DNA from: Dysidea avara
Lineage: Eukaryota; Porifera; Demospongiae; Dictyoceratida; Dysideidae
Assembly (NCBI RefSeq): GCF_963678975.1
Contig: NC_089276.1
Coordinates: 26,741,555-26,805,554 of the forward strand
DNA: 64,000 bases
Reading direction: 5' to 3'
This document shows positions 16,250-58,093 of the stretch, in pieces. The translations under genes were made by a program, and so were the position numbers. The notes under the pieces were generated by a model. The model was given only the letters and a program-made list of their open reading frames with translations, did no database searches and had not been told where the DNA came from. Each line of letters begins with the position of its first letter. The stretch's first letter is position 1.

Positions 16250-16960
16250 CTATATAGCTTGTAGCAGAAATCTCTACAAGGTAACTTATTTGTAACCGAA
16301 CTCGCTACAAAGTGACTTTTAATGTACGTGGACTCTCCTCAGAATGACTTGTTGTAGCTGAACTAACTACAAGGTGACTTGAATGCTTCACAGGATGCTT
16401 GTTTGTAGCTGAACTCTCTACAGGTGGGGACTTGTTTGTAGCGCAATGCTCTGCTGGGTGGTTTTTTTTGTAACTTTCCACAAGGTTTGTTTGTAGCTGA
16501 AATCTATACAGGGTGACTAGTTTGTAACTGCATGAACACTCTGCTGGTACTGGGTGTCTTTTTGTAGCTGATCTCTCTATACAGCTGCAGTGACCTGTTT
16601 ATTATCTACAGGGTGGTTGTTTGTAGCTGAACTCTCTACAGGGTGACTTTTTGTAGCTCTACAGGTGACTTGTTTGTGACTGAACTATCCACAAGTTATT
16701 TATAGGTCACAGGGTGATTTTTTTACAGGGTGATTTTTTTACAGGGTGATTTTTTTACAGGGTGATTTGTTTGTAGCTGAATTCTCTTCCAGTTGATTTG
16801 TTTGTACTAGGGCTTGCTACAGGATGACTGTTCGTAGTTGAACTCTTTACAGGGTGATTTGTTTGTAGCTGAACTCTCCACACAGTGACTTGTTTGTAGC
16901 TGAATGCTCTACTGGGTAACCGCTTTAGCTGAACTCTACGTTTGTGGCTGACCTCCCCAC
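16250..16960 (+). repeat. 31-bp minisatellite, left part
   Basis: About 20 diverged copies of a unit with the core CTGAACTCTCTACAGG followed by GTGACTTGTTTGTAG. The array stops abruptly at 16960, where the MULE begins, and resumes at 23328 in the same orientation and register, so 16250-16960 and 23328-24180 were one array. Confidence 0.9.
16952..16960 (+). repeat. 9-bp target-site duplication, left copy
   Basis: CCTCCCCAC directly precedes the left TIR, and the identical nine bases follow the right TIR at 23328-23336. Removing the element and one copy restores a normal minisatellite unit (GTGGCTGACCTCCCCACAGG), matching other units in the array such as the one near 23405. MULEs typically make 8-11 bp duplications, most often 9. 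Confidence 0.93.
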
Positions 16961-17002
16961 GCAAATTTTTTTTTGTATGAGGTTTTGTAACTTTAATATT
17001 TT
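16961..17002 (+). repeat. MULE left terminal inverted repeat
   Basis: Starts GCAAATTTTTTTTTGTATGA and continues to ACTTTAATATTTTC. It aligns over about 35 bases with the reverse complement of the right end, with substitutions at a few positions. Confidence 0.88.
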
Positions 17003-17377
17003 CATTTAATGGTTTTACATAAAGTGAACGGACATCAATTACTCAACCCTGCACGCCACGCACCATCGAACATAATCATTTTGGTTGCACTGTAGACTAT
17101 ACAGCTAGACTCTGTACGTAGTTATGCTTATTTAGTCAGCGCGTTCACCTTAAGTCATTGAAGGACCCTCCTAGTAATGAACACTATTTTCTAAGACATG
17201 CATGCAATTAGCTAGCTAGCTATTCATTGTGTCCCTTGTTCCAAAGTGTCCCAGTGGTTCAAATATAATTGCATGCATTTAAAAAGACACATTGTACATA
17301 TCTGACTACTATAGCCGTACTGAAATTCCACAAGACTAACAAGAGTGCAAAAAGTTGGCCACACTGATACAATGAGT
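17003..17377. other. MULE 3' untranslated side
   Basis: No frame. It includes a run of GCTAGCTAGCTA near 17211. It lies between the left TIR and the transposase stop and would be the 3' flank of the transposase. Confidence 0.5.
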
Positions 17378-20321
17378 TCACCATTTTCCAGCATTTTGAA
17401 GGCCCTTTGAAACATTGACAGAAAAGTTATGAGGGCGTTTACCCTTGGGATCTCTTCTTGTTGGCATGTTGTAGCGATTAGTGTCATTTTCTTTTCCTCC
17501 GGTACAATTCAATTTTAGCGGTCTCCCTGATGCAACCGTTCCTTTACCCCTAGGTATCCCCTTTCGACGGCGACCTGCAGCAGTTGCCTGCACTGGGATT
17601 CTATACTCTCTTCTTAACAAACCAGGTTGAACAGTCAACTTTTCCCCCGGAGACCATGCAAATTGATGCAAGGCAGAAGCAAGCTTCGCAGTGGTACTAC
17701 TTGCACACATATCTTGATATCTCTTTACAAACTTTTCTATTCCTGAGACCATGTTATAATCTTGATCGTTTTGTTGCAGGTGTTTTGTCATGTCTTCCAT
17801 TACAACTTTTAGCTGTGACAATGTTTCAGAATTCTGGTCAACGCTTGCATCTTCTTCAATTTGCATCTCTTCACTGATTTCATACGTGCCATCCTCAACA
17901 ACAATTGGGATCACAGCACTGTCAATCTCAGGGAATTGTCTTTTACTATCACAAATAGTTTTTTCATCAGATGCCTGCGACACAGCTGCACACATTGACA
18001 AGTCAGCCTCTGCCTTATCTCCTAATGCTATATATGCCATCAGCTTCCTAGATTCAGGGTGCATGGAAGGAATAAAATTTATACTTGACTTACGAAAATT
18101 GATAGCAACTGCTGCCTGATGACTGCATGGAGACCCATCACTTCCTAGAACACATGTGCAGAACCCCACAGACATATCCACTGTATACACATCACCATTA
18201 TCCCTTGAGCTTACAACCTTAAACTGATCATTGTTGTCCGTAGTGTATAGGTTTTCCAGCTTAATTTTGCTTGCATTGATACCTTTGAACTTCATAGATA
18301 CATAGTGATCAAACCTGCAATGAGCTATGCTGAGCAGCTTCCTCTGATAGTAAAGTTCTAAAGCATCTGTCACAAAGTGAAACATTTGAATGAGATTGTA
18401 GGTGTTGACACAACTAAATATCAATTCTTTGAGAATTTTCATGCCAGCTTCTGAATAATTGTTGGTGTGATTACCACAAACTGGCAAAGAAACACGAAAG
18501 CAAAGAGCCCACTGGTGTCTCTTGGTCCAGAGAGCTTTCACATAATTGCAAAAGTGGGGGTACTTGGATGCTGTAGTGTGCTTTAACAAATCACTGTAGC
18601 TCTCATTTAGTAATAGCTCAGATTTGCTATACAAAAGCTTTTTTAGCAAATTAATTAATATAACCACATCCATCGTCTCTGCAAGAAGTGGAATGAGCAA
18701 AGCAAAGTAACAATGTTGAAGAAGGCCATACTGACTGCAAAGCAGCTTGTTCTGCTGCACTATCATCTGTAAGTATGACTTTAGGACCAACACTTGTACC
18801 ACTGTTGTAAAATGCATCATGCAGCCACACCTTTTTTAAATCTGATAAAGCTGAACATAATATAGATTCCTTTTCATCTGATGTCAATACAATTCCTAAA
18901 AGAATGGATCCTCCTGCGTGATTAGTTGAAAAAAGAAAGACAGATGTATTGAAGCGATCAAGGCAGGAAGTTGAATCACAGTACATGACTTCTGCTGCTT
19001 GTGGGAGGTTTTGATGAGCTCTTGCCATCATTGGAGTACAAATAGTAACAATCATTGGCTGAATAGCACATTTACGTCTTTTTGGAGGCTTGCCAGAATC
19101 ACTGCAATCACTAGTTTCTCTATCATCAGAGGATTCTCCTTTATCACTGGACTTCATGCTGTCAAAAAACTGTAAAGTTGCTTTCCCACCTATTGAATTA
19201 TATTTTTCATTATATAATCTTATTTCTTCTTTGAGTTTTTCAAACATTGATTTTCCATTCTGTAGTCCCAGTTCTGATTTTCTCCATGTATCAAACAACC
19301 TGCTTACATCTTGAGGATTAGGATTGACTGATCTATCTGCTAGTGTGGCCTGTGTTGAATCTGGATCTCCCAGCAGCTGTGATTTGCGATAGTGTCTTGC
19401 AGTAGCAGCTGAATGGCCCAGAGCAAACAGTGTGAAGTATGCATCCTTTGTTTCTTGGGATACTGATTTAAAGCTCAAGGTATGAAAGCATCTGATCGGA
19501 TGGTTATGCTGAAACAGAAGTTTGACATACAAAGGATGGCTACGCTGTAAGGAAGTAGCCTTGTTGTTTGTTGCAAATAATGTAACAGAGAGTCTTGAAG
19601 GACAATTTGTTTTTTTGTTCCGTAAGGTACTAACCATAGTTGGTTTTTTAGGCTTCTTGCTTTTAGCACTTAGCTGCTTTGCTGTAAGCTGTTTTCGATA
19701 ATGGTGGCAATGCATGTCCAGCTTATACAACACTCTCTTTTTAAAGATGGATTGTATGTGCAGGTCTTGCGATATGTGCATTGGCTTGACTGAAAAAAAA
19801 GCTGTAATCCAATCATTAAATTCTTCTTTGGAACACAAGTTAACTCTAAATTCTACATTGAAACACTCCTTAGATTCACCAGAAAATGCTTCCTGTGTCA
19901 AATCTTCATACTTCTCGATGACATAAGTGTATGACATATTTGTACTTGTAGATTTTGGTGGACGAATTGCCTTTAACTCATTATTTAAGTCATCCCATGT
20001 AATAATACAATTAAAACTATCCTCAAATGCAGTTTTGTCAACTAGTTCCATCTTGGGTTCTGTATCAATTGATTTCCTGCTTTCATAAAGTTGTAAAAGC
20101 TCAACTGGTTGCACCTCAGGTTCTGTAACAAAGGATTTATTGCCGTCATTGAGTGCTAAGATATTGACTGGTTGCACCTTTGGTTTCATAAACATTTTAC
20201 CACTACTGCAAAAAGGATCCTTCTCTTTTAGTGGCACACAATGATCCTTCTCTCCTAGTTGCACAGAGTCACTTAGTAGTGTGTCACGAGTTAACAATAA
20301 CTTTTGTGTTAGCCAGCTCAT
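17378..20321 (-). pseudogene. MULE transposase with WRKY/GCM1-like and SWIM zinc fingers, frameshifted
   Basis: The N-terminal frame (20321 to 18651) has, at about residues 195-300, spaced Cys and a HNHPI block typical of WRKY-GCM1-like DNA-binding fingers. It then has the MULE catalytic core: CDST (D449) and LTDDSAAEQAAL (D519/520), running into LLLCFAH. The family motif 'FH.LQ.RW.WL' follows in a second frame (FHFLQRRWMWLY), and the protein resumes in a third frame at about 18660 with NLLKKLLYSKS. The C-terminal part holds a SWIM finger (FCTCVLGSDGSPCSHQ, about residue 221 of that frame) and a basic tail (GRRRKGIPRGKG, KRPHNFSVNV). The two indels lie about 40 bases apart near 18660-18700, so the copy is inactive unless they are sequence errors. 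The ATG at 20321 has an in-frame stop two codons upstream and lies inside the last protease exon; the Met codons at residues 43 and 45 are alternatives. Confidence 0.88.
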
Positions 20322-23174
20322 TTGCTATTCTCTGACGAATTCTAGGCATTTCCACCTATAGTGAAGATAAATAATATTACAGTCAGTGATATAAACACCA
20401 GATAAGATAGGACATAGAATTAAAGCACCACTAAATTAAAATACTACTGCAGGTGACCGCAAAGTATGCATAGTACAGCCCTTCCATAAAGATGTGCACC
20501 TGAAACATGATAAATCGGATACTTTTGTGCATGATCCTGAATATTAATGTATGATAGGACTGAGACAAATCGTAACAACTTTATTTCCTGAATGTCCAAA
20601 CAAAACAAATTATTATGACATGGATATGCTATCTATGGTTGCACTTTAATTAGCATATACTAATATTCATACAACTACAAAGCTTGTAGCAATAGCTATG
20701 GTGAAGGATCTGTAAAAAGGAATAAGGGAATATGAGAGCGCTTAAATTATCTGTATGATTTCATACCACTATACAAACACCATATTTTAGCTGTGGCATA
20801 GTTCATACATAGCCTTATCATAAAAGCTGCTCTCGAATAAGAGCCACTGCTTGTATTTAAATATGCTGATTGAATTGTTTGTAATACATGCACATTCAAT
20901 ACTGAAACCAGGAATATATTTAAGTCAGCTATCTGATTAAAACAGCACTTTTATGAGAGTAACTTAGTGTATAAAAGTATTTAAGGAATCAGGTCAGTTA
21001 TTGGAGAGTCCATATAAATGCCCTGGCCTTAGTGCCACACAAGCCCATGGTAGTCTCCTTGAAAAACAACCGCCTTTGCATAGTATCCGGTTAGTTTTCC
21101 TAGCTGAAAATTAAAATAACCATGGCTATTAAACATGGCAAATATTCAATATGTGTACATCATACAGCATATGTACTCTAGCTATTATTACATTGTACAT
21201 GTACCTGTGTAAAAGTCATTGGATAGTCCAGTAAGAGGCATCGGGCATACTGTATAATATGATACGAAACAACATTACTGTGTCAATGTCTTAATAACAG
21301 TAAATCCCTTACTTCTAACAGAAATACTCCACAGTCATACTGATTGTTCTGCTGTGGTATACCCTAATAGCATAAAAATGTATTATACATTTTCTACCAA
21401 TATTACGCACACATTTAATCTTACACTCATAGTTTTGCATTGCCAAAGGTCCTTTGAAACAAGTTGCCGTTCATGAAAAAACATCCTAATTTTACAAAGC
21501 ATAGCTCAATCACTAATTAAAGCATTTCACATACTTTAAAGATTCAAAACAACAAGTTTGTTCAGTATTCAACGAATCATAGTATATCATCTTATTGGTT
21601 AGTTCTATTCTCTAATTAATAATTAAATACTTTAGCAAACATGCCATACTATGATTACTAACCATCATTGTCCCGTGGCTGTCATTTGAAAAAATAGCAA
21701 GCAAATAATCACTCTCCAAAAAGTTTACCTTAAACTTAGCAAAAAAAAAAACAACATAATAAAGTACAAAATTATATCAGTATACGTACCTTTGAGTACC
21801 AATTCTGCACACCAGAGTAGCCTGTCTCTAGTAGCTTCTTTGTAAAGAAACAATTAAGAATAGTTAAACGTTGGGCACGACTCTGATGAAAAGCAGCTTT
21901 TCACAATTATGCTAACATTGTTACTAATTACCAAACCTTCTGAACATGATCTTCTAAAAGCCTTAGGTAGTCTGATATTACCTATAAAAACAGATGTATA
22001 AAAAATAGTACAACACTATGTAAGATATCATGAAGTATAGTTTCATGTTTACAATATGCAATCTCTAAATATCTGCAAATCTGAAAATGCTCGTGTGAAA
22101 AGCTTTCAAGACTTATGTACTTGAAACACCTCACAAATTAAATTTTCGCTATAGTGTAAGCAATCAATTGCTAATCAACTCAATCATTGGAAAATATATT
22201 GAATGCATGTTGTACTATAGTACTGTCCAGAGGTAACGTTACACTTGCAAGCAGTTGACACTCGTGTAGCCCATTGTCGACCTGTGTATTTCTTTGGCAT
22301 GTGTGTGCTAATAACTCACCACATGTAGCCACAACACTCAAGTTCCCTCGGGTGGTTGCTCCAGTAACTGCGTGCCTTCACATGTGATGATTTTCAGTTT
22401 TGTGTCATGTCAAGTCAGGGCCTGGATTTGAGCACTTGTGAGGTATTGTAACGTTACCTCTGGGCAGCACTGTATATAAAACAGTGGGATTTAATGCAAT
22501 GAAGAAGTGTCGCAGTTTGTTAAGTGTAATAATAACCAGGGTAAATATTTGACAAGCAAAACCCTTGAACCCAGTTGCAAGTGTTTTAACCAGCACTGTG
22601 AAAGTGATTCACATACATGCAATGTACATAATGACTTAGCTGTGAAGTGCTAACATTAATTGTACCTTATGTGAGAGCCACTGGTTTCCAGCAAGACAGC
22701 TGTAATATTCATCACCATGTTCTACAGTCAGCTCATAGTCTGTACAATCCATATCAGTGAGGTCAATCACAGTTGACTCCCCTAGAAATGCAGTAAATCC
22801 AATTGTTCAATTATATCGGTGAATGGAAGACATTATTGGGACAAGCCTACATCTATACATAATACTGTAACCCACTGTAAAAAAATGGTATGATTTTATT
22901 AATTAGAGTTGTTAATGCATTGTGGCATATTTTGAGTTGTAATATACAATTAAATCAGTGCATGTGTGCTCTATCAGTAAACAATTCAAGCAAGACGGAC
23001 TAACAAGACGAGCCTTTATACAAAGGCTCCATCAAGTCACCCCAACAAATGCACACTTAATTGGCCCAATTCAATTGCTTCTAACCACGATACTGACAAA
23101 TACTAAAACGTACTGTAAATAAAATCACACTTCTCACCTGTAGCAGTATCACTATGGCCCTCGCTGCTTTCCAT
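20284..23174 (-). CDS. Ulp1/SENP-like C48 cysteine protease carried by the MULE (10 exons)
   Basis: Exons (minus strand): 23174-23138, 22781-22666, 21981-21937, 21837-21790, 21728-21663, 21590-21535, 21485-21425, 21363-21313, 21249-21205, 20355-20284. Every intron is GT-AG and every phase joins, giving 198 residues from ATG to TGA. Family landmarks: CLAGNQWLSHKVISDYL (usual 'WLND.II..YL') at about 42-58; catalytic H100 in NDSHGTMM; D109 in IYYDSL; oxyanion Gln Q148 and nucleophile C154 in PQQNNQYDCGVFLLE; and the end-of-domain EMPRIRQRIANEL. C48 enzymes cleave SUMO/NEDD8-type isopeptides; the length is close to SENP8. Oddity: the Trp that normally follows the catalytic His is Gly (GGG, one base from TGG), which may weaken activity. 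The final exon overlaps the start of the transposase frame by about 38 bases. I assembled the exons by eye from splice sites; no transcript supports them here. Confidence 0.82.
22220..22472. mobile_element. TA-flanked MITE in protease intron 2
   Basis: Inverted ends: AGTACTGTCCAGAGGTAACG, TTAC on the left; GTAACGTTACCTCTGGGCAG, CACTG on the right. TA lies on both sides. Size and TA target suggest a Tc1/mariner or pogo-type non-autonomous element inserted after the MULE gene formed. No ORF. Confidence 0.65.
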
Positions 23175-23287
23175 TTTCTATTCCTTGGCACCCCACAACG
23201 CCAGGCAACGACCCACAATAACGCATCAAACAGATTACGTATTTAAGTAGGCTTCCGGAAATTCCAGTTTATGTAGCTACTGGTGTA

Positions 23288-23327
23288 CAAAGTTAAAGTG
23301 GCCAAACCTCGTACAAAAAAAATTCGC
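23288..23327 (-). repeat. MULE right terminal inverted repeat
   Basis: Reads AAAGTTAAAGTGGCCAAACC, TCGTACAAAAAAAATTCGC up to the duplicated CCTCCCCAC. It is the inverse of the left TIR. Confidence 0.88.
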
Positions 23328-24180
23328 CCTCCCCACAGGGTGACTTGTTTGTAGCTGAACACTCTACTGGATAACTTTTTAGCTGAACTTTACAGGTGGC
23401 TTGTTTGTGGCTGACCTCCCCACAGGATGACTTGTTTGTAGCTGAACTCTCTACAGGGTAACTTTTGTGGGTGAGCCTTCCACAGAGTAATTGTTTGTAG
23501 TTGATATCTCTACAGGGTGACTTGTTTGCAGCTGAACTCTACTTTTAAAGCTGAACTCTACAGGTGATTTGTTTGTAGCTGAACTCTCTAGAGGGTGACT
23601 TGTTTAGCTGAACACTTAACTGGGTAACATTTTAGCTGAACTCTACAAGTGACTTGTTTGTGGCTGACCTCCCCACAGAGTAAATTGTTTGTAGCTGAAC
23701 TCTCTACAGGGTGACTTGTTTGTAGTTGAACTCTCCAGTTTGTGGGTGAACTCTCTACAGGGTGACTTGTTTGTAGTTGATCTCTCCACAGGGTATAGTT
23801 TATTTATAGCTGAACTCTCCACAGGGCGGTTTGTTTGCGACTTGTTTGTGATTTGTTTGTACCTGAACTCTCTACAAGGTGACTTGTTTGTAGCTGAACA
23901 CTCTACTGGGTAACTTTGTAGCTGACCTCCCCACAGGGTGACTTGAACTCTCTACAGGGTAACTTGTTTGTAGCTGAACTCTCCACAGGATAGTTTGTTT
24001 GCAGCTGAACTCTCTTCAGGGTGACTTGTTTGTGATTTGTTTGTAGCTGAACTCTCTACTGGGTGACTTGCTCATAGTTGAACTCTCTACATGGTGATTT
24101 GACTGTAGCTGAACGTTCTAATAGAGTGACTTATTATGTAGCTGAATATTCTATTAGGGTGACTGCACTATTAGAGTATC
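23328..24180 (+). repeat. 31-bp minisatellite, right part
   Basis: Begins with the second copy of CCTCCCCAC and continues the same unit and orientation as 16250-16960. At its right end (24105-24180) units grade into TGAACGTTCTAATAGAGTGAC and ATTCTATTAGGGTGACTGC, which links the minisatellite unit to the dispersed CTCTAATAGAACAGTCAC motif. Confidence 0.9.
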
Positions 24181-24589: not shown

Positions 24590-25480
24590 ATTCTATTTCA
24601 AACCACAGGACAACAGTTCAGCTGGTATAAAGCAAGTAACACCTACTTTACTTTTGTAGTGCTTGATTCTGTCTGCCTGGCTATTATTGCAAAGCACACT
24701 TGTCCCTTGAGCAGGATTGGACAGACCCTCAGGTTTTGAGATCACAATCTCAGGAACAGCACACTGCCTAGCCATAGGATTCAGCATTAAACATCAGGTG
24801 GAATTTTGAAATAGGTCATGGACCCATAGGTGCGGCCCTCTCTGGTTGCATGTCCTGCATTTGCATGAGTATGGCTTTATGGTCCATATTTTTTTTATTA
24901 TGACTGGCTGTTTCATTAATAAACCACAGTGGTGAATCATGGTTCATTGCTGCTGTTAGACAAAGAATTTTATTTTGAGGGTGAAACTAACACAACATTC
25001 CCTCAATGTAGGAGGCCACTTAAGAAGGCAGTCAAGGTCGGTATCACAAAAGTTGCTGCTCCTAAATGCCTAATTTAGCTGCAAAAAGGCCATATATTTA
25101 TTATATTCTGGCAATATACTTCATGCTTTTACCAGCCATTATGCCTCAAGTAATTGGTATATTCCCAAATTCTATGCCAACTGTAAATTGCTGTTTCAGG
25201 TGTCGGTTTGTTGAAAGTCTTAATAATAAGGTCACTTTGTTTAATTGTTGCATTAATAAGGTTTTAGTAATATACGACATACAAAAAGTAATCTACTTTG
25301 TAAACTTAATAGTGCCCATGCAGGTATGCAGTTCTAGATAAACAATTAAACAATTAAATAAACCACTATGATCAAGTTGTTAAATAATTTGCTGTGTTTA
25401 AACACATATTTTGTGTTTTCACTTTACCAGGTTCTTTGTTCTTAAATTTAATCATACACTACTTCACAAACTTGTTACAG
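24590..25480. other. Mostly non-coding stretch before the Death-domain exon
   Basis: A minus frame of 64 codons (24593-24787) may be an older piece of the LINE. The rest shows no exon I can support. Confidence 0.4.
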
Positions 25481-25765
25481 GTAGCTCAAGACCAACCCTT
25501 AAGAAACTACAAAAAGCTAGAGTGATTGCTGCTGCTAGTTCCAGATGGTATCAACTGGGAATAGAGCTACTAGATGATGATCAGGTGACACAGTTGAGAA
25601 TTATCAAGGAAAACAATGATGATGTAGCAGCTCGTTGTTCTGAAATGCTCAGCTACTGGATGCAGACTCATCCCAATGCCACTTGGTATCAGTTAGTGGC
25701 AGCAATGAAGACACCAGGTGTTGAACTGAATGAATTAGCTGCAACTGTGGAAAAAAGTTACACTG
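25481..25765 (+). CDS. Death-domain exon of an unidentified gene
   Basis: A 285-base exon between a TTACAG acceptor and a GTAAAT donor, with phase 1 at both ends. It encodes about 95 residues with the Death-domain pattern: KARVIAAASSRWYQLGIELL (helix 1 to helix 2 with W and LG), QVTQLRIIKEN, CSEMLSYWMQTHPNATWYQL (helices 4-5 with the conserved W) and LNELAATVE. Death domains mediate homotypic assembly in innate-immune and apoptotic signalling and are strongly expanded in sponges. The symmetric phase 1-1 layout fits a shuffled module. Neighbouring exons were not found with confidence; a stretch at 25874-25922 after TTTCAG could be a next exon. The frame is free of stops. Confidence 0.75.
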
Positions 25766-26019
25766 GTAAATGGAGCATAATTACAAATTATTTGCATATA
25801 ATACTGTCTACACCAATGACAGTACAGAAAATAAGTACCGGTATTAGAGTTACACAATCAATACATTTCAGATGGTGTACATTGCATGGAATTGTACTGG
25901 TTTTTGCTGTTGTGCCACTTTAGGACTTCTCTAGTAGAGCACACATTTTTTCTGACACAACGCATATCAGGGCTAGGTGATATACCAGTATTGTTAGTAT
26001 ACTGTGATCAAGACACATG

Positions 26020-35621: not shown

Positions 35622-38600
35622 TCAAACATCTGCTTCTAACGGTATCAAATGCTGTATTGGACGCCTTAGATTGATGACTTTCTCCTTGCTTAGTACCTGA
35701 ATCTTTGCTGATCTAACCTTTCCATCTCTTCCATCTCGTCCTTCTAGTGTTTCAGTCACCTTAGCTAATTTCCACAAACACTTGGCTGTTCCATCTTCTT
35801 TTAGTATCACAATATCTCCAACTTGTATCCTCCTAGCATTGTCATTAGGTGTCTTGATTGCTCTTTGTTCTTGTAAGCTTAACAGATAATCTTTCTGCCA
35901 TTGTCGAGTAAAACTGCTCAGCACACGAAATTGATGTTTCGCTCGTTTAGTCAGTGTTTTGTTAGTACTTGAAACCTCAAATTGACATCCACTGGGTGTA
36001 GTAGCTAACCTTCGTCCATAGACTAAACTAGCTGGGGTTAGAGCATAGGACACACCTTCCTCATCATCCTGCACGTAGGTCAAGGGTCTATTGTTCAGTA
36101 TTGCCTCAATTTCTGCAACAGTTGTCACCAACTCATCAAACTTTAAAGTGGATTTCCCACGACCTTCCTCAAGCAACGTTTCACACTTCTAACTATCCTC
36201 TCCCAAAATCCCCCCACCAGGGGGCCTTCTCTGCAATAAACATCCATCGGATCTGTTTGTTTGTCAGGTGTTGATGGACTTCTTCTGATCGTACCACCTT
36301 CATCACTTCCTTAGCACAATGCTTAAACGTTTTTGCATTATCTGACATAACAAGTGATGGTACTCCTCTCCTGCTACAAAAACGTCTGAAAGCTAACAAG
36401 AAAGTGGTAGATGTCATGCCATCAGTAACCTCTAAATGCAATGCTCGAGTGGAGGCACACGTAAATAAACAAATGTATGTCTTACTACTCTGTGTCCCTG
36501 CACCACTCCGAACATACAAAGGCCCAGCAAAATCTACCCCTGTATTGTTGAAGGGTGGGTCTTCACTTACTCGCTCAGTTGGAAGATCAGGTATCTGTGG
36601 TCCAGAGTATGGTCTACCTTCATAACGTCTGCATACATTACATCGTCTTATAATCTTCTTTACAGCTTCACGGCCTCTGAAAATCCAGTAATGTTCACGC
36701 AAGGAAGCCAATGTCTCTGAGACACCATCGTGATGCACTAATTTGTGACTCTCTCTAATTAACAGCTCAGTTAAGTAGTGTTCTGTTGGTAACAATACTG
36801 GGTACTTCATAGTTTCTGGTAGGTTTGCATTACCTAAGTGTCCTTTACAATGGATAAATTTCTGATCACTTAAAAACAATTGGAACTGCCTCTTGTAGGT
36901 AACTGTCTTACCCTTCTGTAACTGTTTGTGCTCTTCTGGGAAGGAGTTCTTCTGTATTGATCTGATCCATAGGTTCTCAGCCTCTCTCAATTCCTCACCA
37001 TTCAAATCTTTTGATACTTCTGTTCTGTTTTTAAATTTCAACAAGTTGACAAATTTCAACACAGTTCCCATCACTCTTAACAGTTTAAGCTTAGAATTGT
37101 ACCTTTTCAGGTCAAATATGGCTTCAAGATTTAAAACTACATCTCTGTCTTCTGCAACTGATACCATCGAGTGTACTATGACTGGTGAGTTCTTCACTAA
37201 TTCTGCACTAGCCGCTGTACATTCATATTGTGTGGGGTGATCAGGCCACTTGTCAGGATCTTGTTTCAAAAATTTTGGACCATTCCACCATAGCTCATTG
37301 GATATCAGCTCACTAGCTGTACACGATCTGGATGGTATGTCTGCTGGATTCTCCAATCCTGGGCAAAATCTCCAACTCTCTCCCGTAAACTGGCGTATCT
37401 CTGCTACTCGAATCTGTATGTACTGCTTCCAATGGCGGCAGTTTTTGATCCAACGCAGCACTGTCATTGAGTCTGTCCAACAGTATACTTGTGGCCTTAT
37501 AGGCAGAGACTTCAAGATAGTATTGACTAAACGAGAAAGTATAGTAGCTCCCAACAATTCTAGCCTAGGTATGGTTTGCCCTTTTATAGGTGCAACACGG
37601 GTTTTTGATGCCATCACACATGTACTCACCGTTCCATCATTATAAGCAGATCTCAAATAAACAACTGCTGCATAGGCCTTTTCTGAGGCATCACTAAATC
37701 CATGAATTTCCAATGTGGCAGGCGTCAGCTCTCTGATGTGATAATATCTTGGGACGCTTATCTGTGACATCACGTCTAGGTCATTTGTAAACTGCTTCCA
37801 TATAGTTAATGATGGTTCAGTCAACGTTTGGTCCCAATCCACCTTGTCCTTACACAAAATCTGGAACAGAATCTTGGCTGCAATGATAATTGGACTAAAG
37901 AGTCCTAATGGATCAAACAATTTAGAGGATGTCTTCAAGACTGACCGCTTAGTAGGTGGTAGTGACTTGGAAAACATCATGACATCTTTAAAACTGAAGT
38001 GGAAGTCATCTTTTTTTGTATCCCAGGTAAGACCAAGTATCTTAACACCTTCAACTTCACTTGGAATTGTGGTATTATCTGTGGGATTATTTTTTTGCTG
38101 TAAGGACTCTGAATTGGTTCTCCACTTGCGGAGGTTAAATCCTCCACTTGCCATGAGTTATCTGGCCTTCTCATATGTATGGATTCCTTGTTCTTCATTT
38201 TGTACACCACAAATGAGATCATTTACATAAAATGACTGTGACAGTAATTCTGCCATCTCTGGTTCCTTAAGCAGAAAACGGGTCAAGTGGTATTGAATTG
38301 TTTCTGTCAAAATTGCTGGACTAGGTGTTAAACCAAATACTAGTCGACAAAATCGGTATTGTATTACCTCGGGCCTTGGCTTCGAAATGTCATCAATCCA
38401 CAAAAATCTCAGAGCATCACGATCCTTTGGGTCTATGACAATTTGATGGAATGCTTTTTCTATGTCAGCAGTAAGACCAATTGGGTGACTTCGAAGGTTC
38501 AAGAGTAAATTAAATATGTGCGGTATTCCATTTGGTCCTTTCTCTAAGCAGTCATTTAATGAAAGTGATGTTTTGTTGGCTTTGGCTGATGCATCAAAGA

Positions 38601-39114
38601 CAATTCTCAATTTGGTGGTCTCTCTGTCAGTCTTTATAACAGCATGGTGAGGTAAAAAATAACAGCCATCTTGGTGCGTTTTGCTAGGGATATGCTCTAT
38701 AACACCATTCTGTACCTGCATCTTGAAAGTTGTGTCATACTGTTGAAAAAGAGATTTATCCTTTTGTAACTTGCTTCTTAACTGATTAAGTCTAGCCATG
38801 GATATTTCATAACCATTGCCTTGAGGTCTGAAATCTGTTTTCCAAGGAAGAGTGACCTGGTATCTGCCCAGGATCCAATCGTATTTCAAATCAACAAACA
38901 AAGAACTCATGGAAGCCGTCTGGGTTTCTTCAGCTATACCGATTGACTCGGTCTCCCAGAAACGGTGCAAGTCATCACTCAAATCTTGGTCACTACACTG
39001 TTCACTGAGTGAACCAACTCCTTTTATTACCAAATTAGACACTGCATAATTCACTTCTTTGTTGCCTGCATTGACTGGTCCAGATAGAAGCCATTCCTTA
39101 GCAATGCATAGCAA
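35622..39114 (-). pseudogene. BEL/Pao LTR-retrotransposon pol, damaged
   Basis: On the minus strand, 39114-38158 and 38154-36193 are one frame split by a TAA at 38158-38160. Order: linker DLHRFWETESIGI; RT with TKLRIVFDASAK, GLTADIEKAFHQI and the active-site box YVNDL, where the family has YVDD (second Asp lost); RNase H (GFSDASEKAYAAVVYL, PRLELLGATILSRL, WTDSMTVLRWI); an HHCC finger (HKLVHHDG...CNVC); integrase (GVDFAGPL, MSDNAKTF, APWWG). A base missing in the G-run near 36200 and a second shift separate the integrase core from its C-terminal part (36176-35622: LKFDELVTTVAEIEAILNNR, VGDIVILKED). Gag, protease and a 5' LTR are not present, so the copy is 5'-truncated and inactive. Confidence 0.92.
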
Positions 39115-39900
39115 CGTAATTGATGAATTACAAAATAATTGGTGAATTATGAATACTTTAATGTTAATGTGCTGTGTGTATTGTTACAAAACAAGGTGAG
39201 AAATAAAATAAAAATCGTGATGTGTGTTAATATATTAATAATTAAATTCAAGGGATAGTATTTACTGGGCACCTGGTATTAGACCTGATCTACAGGGGGA
39301 AAGTAGGGCACAGCATGTATAAAGTAGAATTTCAGGGGTTTGGGGGTACAACCCTCAGGAGCTGCAGGATTTTTTCCGATTTGAAGGCTTGAAAACAGCC
39401 TAAAATTTATGCTAAACACATGAAAATAACAATGCCAACCTATACTGCAACTTTCCCCCAAGATTTTTCAAAATTTAATTTTAAGCAGGGGGAGCCATGG
39501 ACCCCCTTAAAATCGCCTATGGCATCTGGTTTTTAGAAGTAGCACAACACAGTTCATGGTTAGTTATGCTGGCTTTTTTATTATGTGCAGTAGTAGCATT
39601 AGCAATGACATCGAACAGTGGCAATGAATTGCTTGGTATTTGTTTTGAATGCTATATATTTTAAACCTATTTAATCTATTTTAACCTACCATCAGTTTTG
39701 AATGCTATTGTCAATAATACCATTGCTCTTCAGAACAGCATTTAATATTATTCATTGCATTTGTAAATGTTTGTAAATGTTTGTAGTGACAAAATTGTTA
39801 CCCAAGGAATATTGAGGACTTAAAACTATTCATTCTCACCAGTGCCTCATGAAAAAGTGTTATACCATGCTTTCCTTAATTCATGTTTTAGCTACCAATT
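39115..39900. other. Non-coding stretch
   Basis: No gag- or protease-like frame for the adjacent pol. Short tandem AAATGTTTGT units at 39767-39786. Otherwise nothing recognised. Confidence 0.5.
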
Positions 39901-44574: not shown

Positions 44575-44830
44575 CTATATATATATATATATATATCTAA
44601 ATCAAACTACTAGGAGGAGGCAACGCAAATTCGCATGAATCGTCATAACTAAAATTTTTGCTACTAACCTACTATCACAGCCATTTCTTGGCCGCCACCT
44701 TGGATTTCACATCTTTTTTCATCCTGGCCTTTTTGGGGGCCGCACTCTTTTAAACTCTCTACAAGGTGATTTGTTTGCAGCTAAACTCTCTACAGGATGG
44801 TTTTTTTGTAGCTGAACTCTCTACAGCAGG
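44575..44830. mobile_element. Half foldback MITE plus minisatellite units
   Basis: After a (TA)10 run, ACCTACTATCACAGCCATTT, CTTGGCCGCCACCTTGGATT and GGGGGCCGCACTC form one arm of the 15.8/58.1-kb MITE family. Two to three units of the 31-bp minisatellite (GTAGCTGAACTCTCTACAG) follow directly. Confidence 0.7.
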
Positions 44831-56449: not shown

Positions 56450-57910
56450 TTGCAGAAGCTACGTTGTAGAGAGTTCAGCTACAAAGAAAGCACCATGTAG
56501 AGAGTTCAGCTGCAAACAAATCGAATTGTAGAGAGTTTAGCTACCAAGAAATCACCCTGTAGAGAGTTCAGCTAGAAACAAGTTATCCTGTAAAGAGATC
56601 AGCTAGAAGAGGTTACCTTGTAGAGTGTTCAGCTATGAACAAACCATCATGTAGAAAGTTCAGCTGCAAACGAATCACCCTACAGAGAGTTCAGCTACGA
56701 GAAGATCACCCTATAGAGAGTTCAGCTAGAAGAAGTCACCTTGTAGAGAATTCAGCTGCAAAGGAACCACCATGTAGATAGTTCAGCTGTAAACAAATCA
56801 TCCTGTAGAGAGTTCAGCTATGAACAGATCACCCGGTAGAGTTCAGCTAGAAACAAGTCACCCTGCAGAGAGATCAGCTAGAAACAAGTCATCCTGTAGA
56901 GAGACCAGCTAGGACAAATCACTTTGTATGTAGAAAGTTCAGCTACAAAAAAAAATCACCCTGTAGAGGGGTCAGCTACAAACAAATCTCCCTGTAGAGA
57001 GATCAGCTAGAAGAAGTTACCTTGTGGAGAGTTCAGCTACAAAGAAACCATCATGTAGAGAGTTCAGCTGCAAACAAATCACCTGTAGAGAGTTCAGCTA
57101 CAAACAAATATCTCTGTAGAGAGATCAGCTAGAAGAAATTACCTTGTAGAGAGTTCAGCTACAAAGAAACCATCATGTAGAGAGTTCAGCTGCAAACAGA
57201 TCACCTGTAGAGAGTTCAGCTACAAACAAATCTCCCTGTAGAAAGGTCAGCTAGAAGAAGTCACCTTGTAGAGAGTTCAGCTACAAAGAACCATCATGTA
57301 GAGAGTTCAGCTGCAAACAAATCACCTGTAGAGAGTTCAGCTACAAACAAATCTCTCTGTAGAGAGATCAGCTAGAAGAAGTTACCTTGTAGAGAGTTCA
57401 GCTACAAAGAAACCATCATGTAGAGAGTTCAGCTGCAAACAAATCACCTGTAGAGAGTTCAGCTACAAACAAATCTCCCTGTAGAAAGGTCAGCTAGAAG
57501 CAGTCACCTTGTAGAGAGTTCAGCTACAAAGAACCATCATGTAGAGAGTTCAGCTGCAAACAAATCACCTGTATAGAGTTCAGCTACAAACAAATCTCCC
57601 TGTAGAGAGATCAGCTAGAAGAAGTTTCCTTGTAGAGAGTTCAGCTACAAACAAATCACCCTGTAGAAAGATCAGTTAGAAGAAGTTACCTTGTAGAGAG
57701 TTCAGCTACAAAGAAACCATTCTATAAAGAGCTCAGCTGCAAACAAATCACCTGCACAGAATTCAGCTACAAACAAATCACCCTGTAGAGAAATCAGCTA
57801 GAAGAAGTTACCTTGTAGATTGTTCAGCTACAAACAATTCACCCTGTAGAGAGAGCAGCAAGAAGAAGTCACTTTGTAGAGTGTTCAGTTACAAAGAAAC
57901 CACCATGGAG
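56450..57910 (-). repeat. 31-bp minisatellite, long array with 122-bp higher-order units
   Basis: About 46 units of the inverse of the 16/23-kb minisatellite (core AGAGAGTTCAGCTACAAA, CAAATCACCCTG). Between about 57017 and 57650 a block of four diverged monomers recurs at 121-122 base steps (TTACCTTGT/TCACCTTGT at 57017, 57139, 57261, 57382 and 57504), that is, a higher-order repeat. Confidence 0.92.
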
Positions 57911-58093
57911 AGTTCTGTAATAAATATATGTATTAGATATATAATTTGTACATTTACTGATAAAATCAGAAATATTTAAAGTACATCTGCTTCATCTTTT
58001 CTTCTTCCTGTGGTAAAGAAAAAAAGACAGGTTTAGGAAGTCCCAAAGCCGGCCTATGGCTGGCTGTGGGGTATACAAATACAAAAAGAAGTG

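Follow-up and report, generated by a model that had tools for sequence, protein, structure and literature searches.

Ulp1-like proteases occur in transposons of the Mutator, Ginger and CACTA kinds (PMC2836005, PMC2528002), and the roles given to them in the account of the Ginger elements are proposals only (PMC2836005). Plant Mutator-like elements (MULEs) described with an Ulp1 domain include Kaonashi/KIU, the VANC-Ulp1 elements and elements of grapevine, melon and rice (PMC13317346, PMC2528002); in some of the grapevine families Ulp1 is oriented as the transposase (PMC2528002), and the Ulp1-bearing VANC genes have been linked with a loss of DNA methylation and with evasion of silencing; what Ulp1 itself does in plant MULEs is called unknown in the same source (PMC13317346). 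Outside plants, Ulp1 domains are mentioned in hydra and lancelet Mutator elements, with Repbase Reports of 2008 and 2009 as the sources cited (PMC2836005), and the remark of the first-pass annotation that it knew of no described animal MULE lineage with such a gene is answered by this mention. A survey of MULEs whose main text contains neither "protease" nor "ulp" lists in a table a hydra element with an OTU gene (PMC6446971). A further group, Ginger1, consists of animal DNA transposons in which the transposase carries an Ulp1 or OTU domain and the gene in some cases has introns (PMC2836005).

Here we describe a MULE from the sponge Dysidea avara, located within a window of 64,000 nucleotides, the whole stretch of DNA that was analyzed, which carries a C48 protease of the SENP kind apparently joined to its own transposase (Table 1). 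With the elements of hydra and lancelet it has in common an animal host and an Ulp1/C48 domain, and the wording "Mutator TPases" in a figure legend may refer to fusions of this type (PMC2836005). The Ulp1 domain is likewise common to it and the plant MULEs listed above (PMC13317346, PMC2528002). However, whereas Kaonashi is without terminal inverted repeats (TIRs) and encodes Ulp1 in a different, oppositely oriented gene, the present element has TIRs and bears the protease on the same strand as the transposase, in an apparent N-terminal fusion whose best junction leads into the transposase, which sets it apart from the Kaonashi/KIU VANDAL elements (PMC13317346, PMC2528002). Ginger1 resembles it in being an animal transposon with a protease-bearing transposase and introns, but differs in its Gypsy-integrase-like transposase, its 4-bp CCGG-type target duplication and the C-terminal position of Ulp1 (PMC2836005), the element studied here having a MULE domain and a 9-bp duplication. 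A literature search, with most subscription papers and Repbase Reports outside its reach, returned no report of an animal MULE transposase with a SENP joined to its N-terminus. What seems new is the fused, intron-rich, N-terminal SENP and its trace in distant relatives; if the hydra or lancelet elements are the same, the present one is only another member.

Table 1. Coordinates of features in and around the Mutator-like element (positions within the window)
Feature	Positions	Strand	Basis or remark
Mutator-like element	16961-23327		TIRs and target duplication
Left target-site duplication CCTCCCCAC	16952-16960		joined flanks restore tandem array
Right target-site duplication CCTCCCCAC	23328-23336		joined flanks restore tandem array
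Left terminal inverted repeat	16961-16996		inverted-repeat listing and end alignment
Right terminal inverted repeat	23292-23327		inverted-repeat listing and end alignment
Exon 1, inferred start codon at 23174	23138-23174	-	
Exon 2, with VIDLTDMD (22747-22770) and first C48 residues	22666-22781	-	
Nested inverted-repeat insert, 259 bp, within intron 2	22216-22474		28-nt arms, 89%
Exon 3	21937-21981	-	
Exon 4	21790-21882	-	
Exon 5, catalytic His then Gly (Trp in SENP5, SENP1)	21663-21728	-	SENP alignment
Exon 6, catalytic Asp in YYDSLN	21535-21611	-	SENP alignment
Exon 7	21425-21485	-	
Exon 8, Gln and catalytic Cys in IPQQNNQYDCG	21313-21363	-	SENP alignment
Exon 9, ending ..YPMTFTQ in phase 0	21205-21249	-	
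Exon 10 (putative), SENP C-terminal motif EMPRIRQRIANEL (20352-20314) into MULE transposase	17381-20355	-	frame broken
CDSTSCLDRFN	18948-18980	-	
LTDDSAAEQ	18747-18773	-	
HTNNYSEAG	18443-18469	-	
SWIM-like CxC..CxH	18119-18160	-	under cut-off in window copy

Boundaries of the element and its insertion site

The TIRs reach both outer ends of the element (GCAAAT.. and GCGAAT.., read inwards) and share a core of 30 nt at 87% identity (16967-16996 and 23293-23322), and an exact copy of the 9-bp target duplication lies on each flank. The flanks are themselves part of a tandem array with a unit of ~31 bp, so that a chance repeat had to be ruled out; hence the element and one duplicate were deleted, the flanks joined and the resulting site aligned to other units of the array. 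Against 23855-23920 the joined site aligns without gaps across the junction (66 bp, 88%), and against 23378-23466 it does so with a single gap (89 columns, 84%). As the joined flanks align continuously across the junction, the insertion is real, and 16961-23327 is a genuine inserted element. The TIRs and the exact 9-bp duplication reported in the first-pass annotation are thus both upheld, removal of the insertion restoring a continuous array. The TIRs agree with assignment to the MULEs, in which such repeats are usual but not universal, and the duplication fits the range of 8-11 bp given for these elements, with 9 bp as the typical length (PMC6446971). The array of ~31 bp units occurs at three sites in the window, at about 16.6-24.1 kb, 44751-44826 and 56465-57912, the MULE lying inside the first.

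The protease, the transposase and the probable junction between them

Nine exons between 23174 and 21205 are bounded by GT-AG introns throughout and join in phase into 197 residues. They were selected with the protease family in mind, and two further checks were added, namely an unspliced tblastn search and a comparison with a related open reading frame from another contig (P0001, considered below). The nine exons alone match the Pfam C48 profile with an E-value of 9.9e-20 (71.7 bits), reaching 2e-20 with a trial tail and 81.0 bits with the fused exon 10, against a curated cut-off of 20.7. His, Asp, Gln and Cys all align to SENP5 and SENP1, and we take them to be the catalytic residues of a SENP-type protease. 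The C48 assignment of the first-pass annotation and its order of these four residues are accordingly confirmed. Exon 2 further contains VIDLTDMD, which we assume to resemble a SUMO-interacting motif. Among solved structures SENP5 ranks first, SENP1, SENP2 and SENP3 come next, and yeast Ulp1 trails by a wide margin; identity to SENP5 (PDB 9gnn) extends to 61 of 166 aligned residues, and the catalytic domain of SENP5, like those of SENP1, 2 and 3, aligns up to the C-terminal motif. Judged by its sequence the protease is a C48 enzyme of the SENP1/2/3/5 kind. It differs from SENP5 in its apparent fusion to a transposase and in having Gly for the Trp that follows the catalytic His, and in light of this replacement the protease of the window copy may be dead. 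The unspliced search with SENP5 against the window, which is independent of the choice of exons, recovered two segments that lie in the expected order and frame (E 4.9e-5 and 0.002), and a third at 20352-20314 that is in order but whose E-value of 0.90 is level with chance matches elsewhere in the window.

The C48 match of the nine exons stops at position 190 of the 217 in the profile, and an exon 10 beginning at 20355 carries it to position 208. The acceptor at 20355 yields, in phase 0, VEMPRIRQRIANEL, aligned to EDMPRVRKRIYKEL of SENP5, and then the transposase; the SENP5 score is 104.6 bits with this exon (E 5.6e-29) as against 85.6 with the trial tail (3.6e-23). When all 277 AGs between 21204 and 17400 were read in phase 0 from exon 9, this acceptor gained 42 score units against SENP5, compared with 12 for the next best and a mean of 1.3 for the others, and 23 units against SENP1, compared with 11 for the next best. 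Since it both restores the missing SENP C-terminus and leads into the transposase, one fused gene is the better reading, and the protease most likely forms the N-terminal portion of this transposase gene instead of a separate gene upstream of it. Of the ten GT-AG exons of the first-pass annotation, nine hold in phase, and the tenth, in which the protease would end on its own, gives way to the far better fitting exon from 20355.

A different arrangement, with two genes in one element, would have a stand-alone SENP ending in 21103-21029 and a transposase starting from its own Met near 20349. It can appeal to the open terminal exon with a usable acceptor at 21103-21029 and to the open reading frames of five relatives that open with a Met at the motif. 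However, this terminal exon, possible as a protease end, adds 2.3 bits to the C48 match (71.7 to 74.0) where the fused exon adds 9.3, and was rejected; moreover, a stand-alone transposase would have no reason to open with the C-terminus of a SENP in five relatives. We consider the two-gene arrangement unlikely, and it is possible that fused and separate forms are used side by side. From the observed boundaries of the element, domains, splice phases and best-fitting junction we instead favor, with good though not complete confidence, a single main gene on the minus strand, predicted to have ten exons and nine introns and to encode a SENP protease followed by a linker and then by a MULE DDE transposase that bears a SWIM-like finger.

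The transposase part comprises the minus-strand open reading frames 20324-18651 and 18835-17378, which belong to one protein. Its Pfam MULE domain (E 4.6e-8) scores 33.8 bits over a cut-off of 27.6, in agreement with the MULE transposase of the first-pass annotation; among the relatives the same domain scores 39.7 in P0029, 30.8 in P0030 and 32.3 in P0012, and falls below the cut-off in P0006 (15.5) and P0028 (25.4). The motifs CDSTSCLDRFN, LTDDSAAEQ and HTNNYSEAG presumably contain, respectively, the expected first catalytic Asp, second catalytic Asp and catalytic Glu. A SWIM or other zinc finger is common in MULEs; in the window copy the SWIM match is below the cut-off (16.4 versus 19.6), and in the five relatives scanned it is above it in P0030, P0006 and P0028, at it in P0012 and below it in P0029. 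For WRKY-GCM1, named beside SWIM in the first-pass annotation, no profile match was found up to an E-value of 1 in the window copy and the scanned relatives, and a profile of the transposase family returned only five weak matches among solved structures, the best being epiregulin (E 0.044). Compared with P0029, the window copy shifts frame around 20303-20314, close to the junction, over a local stretch at about 19790-19735, around 18705-18693 and again around 18670-18658, with some nine residues absent at the last of these sites; the first-pass annotation does not mention these breaks. On account of these frame breaks the window copy is probably inactive, unless they are assembly errors.

Relatives and the age of the proposed fusion

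Searches of a protein collection recovered 27 relatives with the first transposase open reading frame and two more with the fused query of 1190 residues (4806 candidates, 2 hits, neither with C48), while the protease query gave a single hit, P0001, from 52 candidates. P0029, a cluster of 37 member sequences, is 93% identical to the fused query over 83% of that query, its 1003 residues running uninterrupted from the motif to the end of the transposase. In five of the 29 transposase relatives (P0002, P0006, P0019, P0029 and P0030; 67%, 42%, 37%, 93% and 44% identical to the query that found them) the Met of the SENP5-tail motif is residue 1, and in these five the best match to the SENP5 tail was equaled by none of 50 shuffles, which is true of none of the other 25 of the 30 proteins. 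P0010 also has its SENP5-tail match at residue 1, but 25 of 50 shuffles equal it. With the SENP1 tail as a control the signal is weaker: of 50 shuffles none equals P0019, 2 equal P0002 and 6 equal each of P0006 and P0030, and the best match of P0029 lies elsewhere. In the remaining 24 of the 29 the motif does not stand at the start, and some of these have N-termini of equal or greater length (P0010, P0023, P0025); P0025 was considered as a fused relative and rejected, its long N-terminus being repetitive and without a C48 match.

The simplest account of the five N-termini that start at a SENP C-terminus is that, if the intron just before the motif is shared, unspliced gene prediction started at the Met following it; alternatively, a stand-alone transposase could truly start at this Met. 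Both domains together were seen in none of the 30 related proteins, by precomputed Pfam assignments and by direct scans of 11 of them, an absence that is to be read with the introns in mind, as these would break unspliced gene predictions. P0001 contains the equivalents of protease exons 7-9 with introns at the same positions as in the window copy. Its exons are identical at 40 of 52 residues (11/20, 16/17 and 13/15), and its introns show 4 and 5 identities, some of them from the splice signals themselves. The protease exons thus show signs of constraint at the level of sequence. At the DNA level no relatives were found in scans of viral and genome contig collections or by phage tblastn, and when seven relatives were compared with the window by tblastn, along with the transposase and the protease, every match fell within this element (E up to 1e-3).

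Three relatives that are only 37-44% identical begin at the protease C-terminus, and consequently the joining predates their split. Between a fresh capture and an old association, both of which the first-pass annotation had entertained, the old association fits better on this account. If a single MULE copy had picked up a host SENP recently and by accident, in the manner of a Pack-MULE and without function, this would explain the many introns, which a host gene taken over as DNA would bring along, and the broken state of the window copy, and a Pack-MULE has been described in fly populations (PMC8277862). Yet the SENP C-terminal motif heads these same three divergent transposases, the exons of P0001 are conserved while its introns are not, the element carries a transposase of its own, which a Pack-MULE does not, and the paper on fly populations found none in the animal reference genomes that it covered (PMC8277862); we regard such a capture as improbable. 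It is more improbable still that the protease is a host gene or a later nested insertion merely caught between inverted repeats, for although a nested inverted-repeat insert does sit in intron 2, the TIRs and target duplication enclose both parts exactly, exon 10 joins protease and transposase, and none of the 25 listed inverted-repeat pairs encloses all nine protease exons without the transposase (a 14-nt pair, 20867-20880 and 22979-22992, encloses exons 2-9). The insert in intron 2 is probably a short nested transposon that lies outside the gene proper, and the window holds no second copy of it.

A possible role in transposition, and other features of the window

SENPs remove SUMO, silent chromatin is promoted by SUMO, and MULE transposases cut and join DNA at their own TIRs. 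If the gene is fused as we propose, a fused mRNA would be made from it, and the protease would be predicted to remove SUMO in intact copies. The transposase part would then recruit the protease to the ends or the chromatin of its own element, and SUMO would be stripped there from silencing factors or the transposition complex, the outcome being either escape from SUMO-dependent silencing or completion of transposition and upkeep of the complex. We put forward this recruitment and local removal of SUMO, taking both outcomes together, as the likeliest mechanism, if still a tentative one. On the side of silencing, Argonaute-directed silencing in C. elegans is promoted by SUMO and needs SUMOylation of a histone deacetylase (PMC8131101); on the side of transposition, the Ginger paper proposes that Ulp1 helps to activate DNA repair while transposition proceeds or once it is over (PMC2836005). 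A bolder version, which we think rather doubtful, is that these elements represent an old animal MULE lineage in which a single SENP-transposase polypeptide, kept over deep divergence, would undo SUMO-dependent small-RNA silencing at its own insertion sites, as an animal counterpart of plant VANC-Ulp1 that is built into the transposase. That the protease would form part of the transposase, and that distant relatives keep a trace of it, suggests a function where transposition takes place. The fused protein offers a concrete candidate for testing what the Ulp1-like proteases of transposons do, and links this question to work on the SUMO dependence of silencing in animals (PMC8131101).

Elsewhere in the window, an open frame of 744 residues at 3-2234 on the plus strand has only a weak match, below the cut-off, to a deaminase family (PF14424, 0.004). 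Pieces of a BEL/Pao-type retroelement lie on the minus strand at 35625-39183, with Peptidase_A17 (1.8e-50), DUF5641, an integrase zinc-binding domain and a match to reverse transcriptase that narrowly misses its cut-off. These pieces, a Death-domain open reading frame and the SENP type of the protease fit an animal host. The plus-strand open reading frame 40539-41123 matches NADH dehydrogenase (PF00146, 1.8e-15) and is possibly a nuclear copy of mitochondrial DNA, and another on the same strand, 25402-25920, matches the Death domain (3.7e-5).
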